Positions 24,877-25,191 of a stretch of DNA of 64,000 nt are shown here, one piece after another. Source of the DNA: Ahaetulla prasina (lineage: Eukaryota > Chordata > Lepidosauria > Squamata > Colubridae); assembly GCF_028640845.1 (NCBI RefSeq), contig NC_080539.1, forward strand, positions 104,806,554 to 104,870,553. Direction: 5' to 3'. How positions within the stretch are numbered: position 1 is the stretch's first letter; each line of letters starts with the position of its first letter. Made by a program: the position numbers and the translations under genes. The notes under the pieces were generated by a model, which was not told the origin of the DNA, did not search any database, and was given only the letters and a program-made list of their open reading frames with translations.

Positions 24877-25191
24877 CTAAACCTGGAACGTCCTCCCCCC
24901 CGCCTTCAGACAAGATGGAATAGTGTCGCGAACTAGCACAGGGGCTGGATCCCTCCCCGACGGGTTCTTGCCCCCACCCGTCAAGTCCCTCCCCCCCCTT
25001 AAAAAACCCTTATTTAAAAAACTATTTAAAAAACCCCACAAATTCTTCTTGGCCGCATGCCACCTCTCTGGGTCCCAAGACCCTTCGTTAAGGTAAGCCC
25101 TCGATAGCTTGGAGGGCCATTCCTGCGAGGCGGGGGAACCTCGCAGTCGTAGTAGTTCGGCAAATGAATATCTCATGGAGAGATAGTCCAT
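24877..25191 (-). CDS. LINE ORF1 with 4E-T-like eIF4E-binding segment
   Basis: The 104-codon frame starts at ATG 25191; a second ATG at codon 6 (25176) matches the start of the ORF1 at 30295. Residues 7-46 contain R-Y-S-F-A-E-L-L, which fits the eIF4E-binding consensus Y-x4-L-hydrophobic. Then, with tryptophan 31 residues after the tyrosine, comes W-D-P-E-R-W-H-A. Human 4E-T (EIF4ENIF1), from memory, has Y-T-K-E-E-L-L and W-D-P-E-K-W-H-A at the same spacing, with no gap. The rest is basic, Gly/Arg-rich and ends at TAG 24877. Homology or mimicry of 4E-T is inference. A role in bringing the LINE RNA to cap-binding complexes, or in evading or using P-body control, is possible. No RRM or CCHC domain was seen, which is unlike L1 ORF1. 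Confidence 0.75.
   Translation of the reverse strand: MDYLSMRYSFAELLRLRGSPASQEWPSKLSRAYLNEGSWDPERWHAAKKNLWGFLNSFLNKGFLRGGRDLTGGGKNPSGRDPAPVLVRDTIPSCLKAGGRTFQV

Follow-up and report, generated by a model that had tools for sequence, protein, structure and literature searches.

An N-terminal 4E-T-like segment, predicted to bind eIF4E, in single-protein L2-like LINEs of Ahaetulla prasina

The window analyzed here, a stretch of 64,000 nucleotides from contig NC_080539.1 of Ahaetulla prasina, carries two related copies of a long interspersed nuclear element (LINE), belonging to subfamilies designated families a and b, each with a short segment resembling the N-terminus of the eIF4E-binding protein 4E-T (EIF4ENIF1). 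The reading that we favor, and consider on balance probable, is that these are L2-like LINEs encoding a single protein, of which the first 41 residues are 4E-T-like, were likely captured from spliced 4E-T mRNA and would, as predicted, attach to the eIF4E of the host. The whole analysis was made within the single genome of A. prasina, and the name L2-like rests on the original prediction for this DNA, on the anatomy of the element and on its general likeness to such elements. That prediction had placed a 4E-T-type segment in the first open reading frame (ORF1) of a LINE; the bipartite segment, its Pfam match and purifying selection on it were all found, but the segment is best read as the N-terminus of an endonuclease-reverse transcriptase protein and not as part of ORF1.

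In the family-a copy, the segment MRYSFAELLRLRGSPASQEWPSKLSRAYLNEGSWDPERWHAAKK (M1-A41, 25054..25176) is encoded on the minus strand with its Met at 25176, within an open frame at 24877-25215 of which the translation includes MDYLSMRYSFAELLRLRGSPASQEWPSKLSRAYLNEGSWDPERWHAAKKNLWGF. It carries a putative canonical eIF4E-binding motif, Y3-S-F-A-E-L8-L9 (25150..25170), and a putative non-canonical (lateral) motif, W34-D-P-E-R-W-H-A41 (25054..25077). The motif residues named in the original prediction were thus read in this frame, Trp34 follows Tyr3 by 31 residues at the same spacing as in 4E-T, and the ungapped alignment, put at about 38 residues, was found over 41 when compared with human 4E-T. 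The corresponding segment of the family-b copy (M1-A41, 30295..30417, plus strand; canonical motif 30301-30321, non-canonical motif 30394-30417) lies in an open frame at 30256-30606 that translates to MRYTVHELLRLRGAPASQEWPTSLPRAGLNDGSWDPQRWHARRK.

The Pfam profile PF10477 (EIF4E-T), which has 663 positions, matched the frame 24877-25215 over positions 1-43 with E=3.3e-6 and 26.8 bits, the match expected from the original prediction, though slightly below the curated cut-off. In both window copies and in L077, an intact relative of the family-b copy, the match stops at position 43, leaving the DDX6-binding CHD and the P-body region unmatched, and since most of the defining parts of 4E-T are absent, the element is to be seen as a LINE that bears a 4E-T-like module and not as a 4E-T protein. 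Smith-Waterman alignment with human 4E-T (residues 1-82) gave scores of 109 (family a) and 100 (family b), and 20,000 shuffles for each reached at most 56; alignment with the host's own EIF4ENIF1 exons scored 102, again with a shuffle maximum of 56. The human 4E-T query has cysteines at 26 and 50. This agrees with the positions of Cys26 and Cys50 in the accessible part of PMC10618305. With the human query, PDB chain 4ue9_B, a 4E-T peptide of Drosophila, was returned at E=1, and past its vector residues the chain starts RYSKVDLLALR, to be compared with RYSFAELLRLR in the LINE. Chance resemblance was rejected by the Pfam match, the shuffle tests and the permutation test of linker identities given below. 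Searches for relatives beyond this genome gave none usable in the protein collection or in prokaryote contigs, and the only viral-contig match, L078, has PASQEWP but neither motif in the three forward frames read.

Conservation was followed in 70 copies chosen by similarity: a DNA search of the genome, with sequence including the segment, gave 2170 candidates, of which the 40 that were scored make up the family-a set, and the 30 family-b copies are loci cut from the 150 scored of 7933 candidates from a protein search, by protein similarity to the segment. Both motifs are intact together in 68 of the 70 (39/40 in family a, 29/30 in family b), the canonical pattern Y-x4-L-hydrophobic being kept in 40/40 and 30/30, and WDPxxWH in 39/40 and 29/30, respectively. 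Between the two consensus sequences the ratio of nonsynonymous to synonymous substitution rates (dN/dS) over residues 1-49 was 0.22 (95% codon bootstrap 0.08-0.47, 974 usable replicates), together with 0.21 for the endonuclease and 0.76 for the linker, and the same DNA read in frames +1 and +2 gave 0.98 and 2.16. The segment is under purifying selection between the two subfamilies, and the neutral evolution of the motif, considered in the original prediction as an alternative outcome, was not observed in this comparison.

One copy with large gaps (L018) was left out of the trees and later counts, leaving 69 copies, and codons that had changed more than once along a branch were tallied separately and kept out of the ratios. 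On the internal branches of the 69-copy tree, dN/dS was 0.23 (segment), 0.60 (linker) and 0.14 (endonuclease), and on the terminal branches 0.29, 0.53 and 0.38; within families, the internal-branch value for the endonuclease was 0.52 in a and 0.12 in b. No amino-acid change on an internal branch fell at R2, Y3, E7, L8, L9, W34, D35, P36, W39, H40 or A41, the changes being clustered at residues 4-6, 14, 16, 22, 23, 25, 28, 31, 37, 42, 43 and 45. Between L077 and L087, two copies with long frames, dN/dS over residues 1-1100 was 0.28.

Several observations weigh against the favored reading. The score of the family-a segment, 26.8 bits, is just below the PF10477 gathering cut-off of 28.5, the family-b window copy matches more weakly (E=0.0024, 17.3 bits), and the whole 1131-residue L077 protein gives E=0.044 and 13.2 bits. 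No 4E-T chain was returned from the PDB with either the segment or its profile as query, and the single-chain model of the segment is of low confidence, with a predicted local distance difference test (pLDDT) score of 59 and a helix at residues 5-12. Ahead of its non-canonical motif 4E-T has a conserved cysteine (human Cys50) that supports the lateral contact according to the accessible part of PMC10618305; family a has Lys23 and family b Ser23 in its place, and the affinity of the LINE segment may for this reason be lower. Internal-branch counts for the segment within families are small and mixed, with 1 nonsynonymous and 4 synonymous changes in a and 6 and 2 in b (dN/dS 0.9); between L077 and L087 the segment has a dN/dS of 0.47 (3.5 synonymous and 5.5 nonsynonymous differences), above the 0.24 of the linker; and the low terminal-branch value of the segment indicates that the sample is biased toward copies whose segment is well preserved. 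Codons 1-42 contain a stop in 7/40 family-a copies and in 0/30 family-b copies. As to the start codon, 28 of the 30 family-b copies and L087 have no Met in the in-frame stretch upstream of MRY, but such a Met stands 38 residues ahead of MRY in L077 and 5 residues ahead of it in 26/40 family-a copies, in which translation may begin further upstream.

Judged from its sequence, the segment is likely to bind eIF4E. Its Y-x4-L-L helix would contact eIF4E dorsally and its W-D-P-x-x-W-H-A motif laterally, as in 4E-T. In the accessible part of PMC4164784, Drosophila 4E-T, Thor and CUP are described to place the canonical motif on the dorsal and the non-canonical motif on the lateral face, the latter being used to displace eIF4G, while that of PMC10618305 gives a dissociation constant of 2.7 nM for the complex between eIF4E and an N-terminal fragment of human 4E-T. 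By analogy, the LINE protein would compete with eIF4G for eIF4E and displace it, and the newly made protein would clamp cap-bound eIF4E on its own mRNA, ending the translation of this RNA and committing it to a retrotransposition particle.

Action in cis is proposed because a LINE protein usually works on its own encoding RNA; such a switch in cis from translation to retrotransposition is put forward tentatively. The protein of the related zebrafish element ZfL2-2, as described in the accessible part of PMC4176376, binds the element's own 3' tail via a region between endonuclease and reverse transcriptase, so that a single protein could link the cap to the tail. A captured 4E-T clamp might then act in cis with its N-terminus on cap-bound eIF4E and its middle on the 3' stem-loop, forming a closed loop in which translation is off and the RNA passes to reverse transcription, an arrangement that we regard as rather doubtful in this complete form.

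A captured segment might also bind eIF4E but be used otherwise, as an aid to the element's own translation, for nuclear entry together with eIF4E, or as a decoy against host 4E-T. Use in nuclear entry is in line with the title of a cited reference, according to which eIF4E is carried into the nucleus by 4E-T; 4E-T knock-down raises the mRNA and Gag protein of the IAP retrotransposon, as stated in the accessible part of PMC10377603, indicating that host 4E-T can restrain retroelements; and upstream ATGs precede the start codon in the scanned leaders. Bipartite binders of the 4E-T type, however, displace eIF4G and would lower cap-dependent translation (PMC4164784, in the part available), and the match covers only the eIF4E-binding part of 4E-T and none of its nuclear signal, leaving these uses somewhat unlikely. 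Routing to P-bodies, raised in the original prediction, is disfavored, since the P-body localization sequences of 4E-T are described as C-terminal in the accessible part of PMC5291280 and the match is limited to profile positions 1-43.

Part of the conservation at the DNA level may reside in the RNA. The segment includes an 8-bp inverted repeat, CTGCGAGG-N8-CCTCGCAG (25123..25146, minus strand), 30 nt past the start codon and spanning codons 11-18, which may form an RNA hairpin and is also found in the family-b copy at 30325-30348 (plus strand). All 8 stem pairs are kept in 65 of the 69 copies, and the fold was compared with shuffled sequences, giving z=-3.08 for copy a (2/200 as good) and z=-1.82 for copy b (9/200). 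Over codons 11-21, with 8.3 synonymous sites, no synonymous change separates a from b, and this invariance, together with the hairpin, is a further point against reading the conservation wholly as that of a binding peptide. The hairpin signal is nevertheless modest, because 17 of 246 windows in the coding region are likewise without synonymous change, codons 11-21 tying for the lowest value with 16 others. These features, and the loss of the 4E-T cysteine, would fit a segment that has lost eIF4E binding and is retained for the hairpin RNA or as an N-terminal arm with a structural or RNA-binding role; against this, Y3, L8 and L9 lie outside the hairpin and keep their amino acids despite synonymous codon differences between the families, and we consider such a non-binding arm unlikely.

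At the other end of the family-b copy, a stem-loop in the 3' tail (33650..33690, plus strand; z=-3.65, 0/200 shuffles as good) is followed by a short A/T-rich repeat, like described L2-type tails. Comparison of this tail with Rfam gave no family above noise, UnaL2-type included, and only two sub-threshold matches. The linker of both families contains, at about codon 104, the strong sense-strand 5' splice-site-like sequence ACGGTAAGTG, with exact GGTAAGTG in 34/39 family-a and 30/30 family-b copies; spliced LINE RNA could yield a short protein consisting of the segment alone. Just past the segment, at about 25000-25036 on the minus strand, the family-a consensus has the heptamer T-TTT-TTA three times, and family b has none, as judged by eye. 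These heptamers stand in the register of -1 frameshift sites.

For the origin of the segment, the host EIF4ENIF1 exons were located in the same genome on contig C15, at C15:1875032 and C15:1880527. One encodes EELLDIKEHPQSKQRPSCLSEKYD(S), with the splice-site sequences TTTTTCAG upstream and GTACTT downstream, and the other, 5.5 kb further, starts (S)DGVWDPEKWHASLYP, with TTGCAG upstream and GTGAGT downstream; the exon ends are sequence-based predictions, and the aligned exons begin after R-Y-T-K. The aligned stretch is interrupted by two predicted introns: the first splits the canonical motif immediately ahead of EELL, and the second falls between the two motifs. No break occurs at either position in the LINE segment, and capture from spliced 4E-T mRNA is thus likely. 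A pattern search for YTKEELL gave six sites, none of which was read as 4E-T; the predicted host intron divides that motif.

In fixed register and without gaps, the LINE segment is identical to the host exons at 18/37 residues in family a and 15/37 in family b, and between the two motifs at 8/24 (permutation p=4.5e-5) and 6/24 (p=0.0013). DNA identity is 58/111 bases for a and 56/111 for b, and the same codon is used for 7/18 and 8/15 of the host-shared residues, so that any capture must be old. 4E-T is widely distributed in animals, from which the direction is taken to be from host to LINE. The alignment in the accessible part of PMC10618305 includes 4E-T from human to fly and worm. Descent of the segment from host 4E-T is, on these comparisons, very probable. 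Short linear motifs arise often, and the low DNA identity would also be expected if the LINE had evolved Y-x4-L-L and the tryptophan motif itself, with no descent from 4E-T, in which case it could still bind eIF4E; such convergence is made very unlikely by the ungapped match over 41 residues at exact spacing and by the identities outside the motifs, which are significant even when family b is taken by itself.

The architecture of the protein was read from the copies with long frames. The family-a window copy, described in the original prediction as a full-length LINE, is not intact: its frame shifts after the segment, within a G-rich linker, so that the segment and the APE endonuclease (23202..24905, minus strand; Exo_endo_phos E=9.3e-13) stand in different frames, and the copy is split by a nested one. 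The endonuclease frame of the family-b copy lies at 30495..31817 on the plus strand (Exo_endo_phos E=1.7e-13). In 6 of the 40 family-a copies (L021, L026, L033, L038, L039 and L040) the segment frame runs on through the endonuclease motif, with part of the linker read in another frame in L038, and longer stretches around these six gave open frames of 447-543 residues. Among the 150 scored family-b matches, 5 had open frames of at least 1000 residues, reaching 1196. L077 and L087 were selected for readout owing to their long frames: the L077 frame encodes 1131 residues from MRYTVHELL, with Exo_endo_phos at 169-360 (E=1.1e-14) and RVT_1 at 638-885 (E=2.3e-31), and thus endonuclease and reverse transcriptase in one protein, and that of L087 encodes 1106 residues with 92% identity to L077.

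The leaders of a family-a copy (L043, about 835 bases) and a family-b copy (L070, about 1060 bases) share 14 bp close to their 5' termini and are otherwise unrelated; no common upstream ORF1 was found, the frames of at least 40 residues in the five scanned leaders differing between families. Long open frames through the endonuclease and unrelated leaders lacking a common frame are best explained by an L2-like LINE with a single ORF, whose protein carries the 4E-T-like segment at its N-terminus or a few dozen residues from it at most. A separate ORF1 protein carrying the segment was originally proposed and might be read from the two window copies, and from most of the 40 copies of family a, in which the segment frame closes before the endonuclease motif. 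It is rejected as highly improbable, since the breaks lie largely within the G-rich linker, the six family-a copies and the long family-b frames continue to the endonuclease, and in the most intact copies, including the two intact frames of 1131 and 1106 residues, the segment is the N-terminus of a single endonuclease-reverse transcriptase protein. The coding regions of the two subfamilies are related and their leaders are not, which suggests leader replacement close to the start codon.

By BLAST, the family-a copy with the segment occupies 22412..25346 on the minus strand and continues at 19452-20165, past a nested 5'-truncated family-a LINE inserted within it (20156..22408, plus strand). The two BLAST pieces of the outer element overlap by 8 bp around the nested insertion, as expected of a target-site duplication. 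The family-b copy occupies 30288..33724 on the plus strand and shares 96.6% identity with L077, its intact relative with a single ORF. Adjoining the leader of the family-a copy, a LINE 3' part, which we take to be CR1-like, lies at 25660-26480 on the plus strand, and a long (ATATT)n array comes after it, at about 26543-26690.

How LINE RNA stays with its protein and turns from message into template is a long-standing question, and a defined peptide like that of a translational repressor, at the start of the enzyme, makes it testable by point mutants. If the favored reading is true, a host eIF4E-binding module has been recruited by a retrotransposon. Among the papers listed by searches of PMC, judged by titles and the beginnings of abstracts and with subscription journals largely uncovered, none described a 4E-T or eIF4E-binding segment in a LINE. 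The survey of 448 Jockey-superfamily LINEs in PMC4120745 lists PHD, RRM, zinc-knuckle, L1-ORF1-like and esterase regions, together with one L2 subgroup of 13 elements without recognized domain, and eIF4E is absent from its main text.

Compared with 4E-T itself, the LINE segment shares Y-x4-L-L, W-D-P-x-x-W-H-A at +31, the equal linker length and linker identities, but is fused to an endonuclease-reverse transcriptase, has Lys or Ser in place of the cysteine, and corresponds only to positions 1-43 of 663 of the profile. Among retrotransposons, UnaL2 is a single-ORF LINE of the L2 clade. ZfL2-2 likewise has one frame with endonuclease and reverse transcriptase and no ORF1, as described in the accessible parts of PMC4176376 and PMC3880073, and shares a stem-loop in the 3' tail; an eIF4E-binding N-terminal part is unmentioned in those parts of its description, on which the comparison was made. 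Also by description, L2 subgroup 1 of Metcalfe and Casane 2014 (type V ORF1, 'No hits'; PMC4120745, in the part available) has no recognized domain before the endonuclease. The elements L2_4 and CR1_6 from the same accessible text resemble the present LINEs in carrying a host-type N-terminal domain, a PHD, in an apparently single-ORF element, but differ in that the PHD recognizes modified histones and is no eIF4E-binding peptide.
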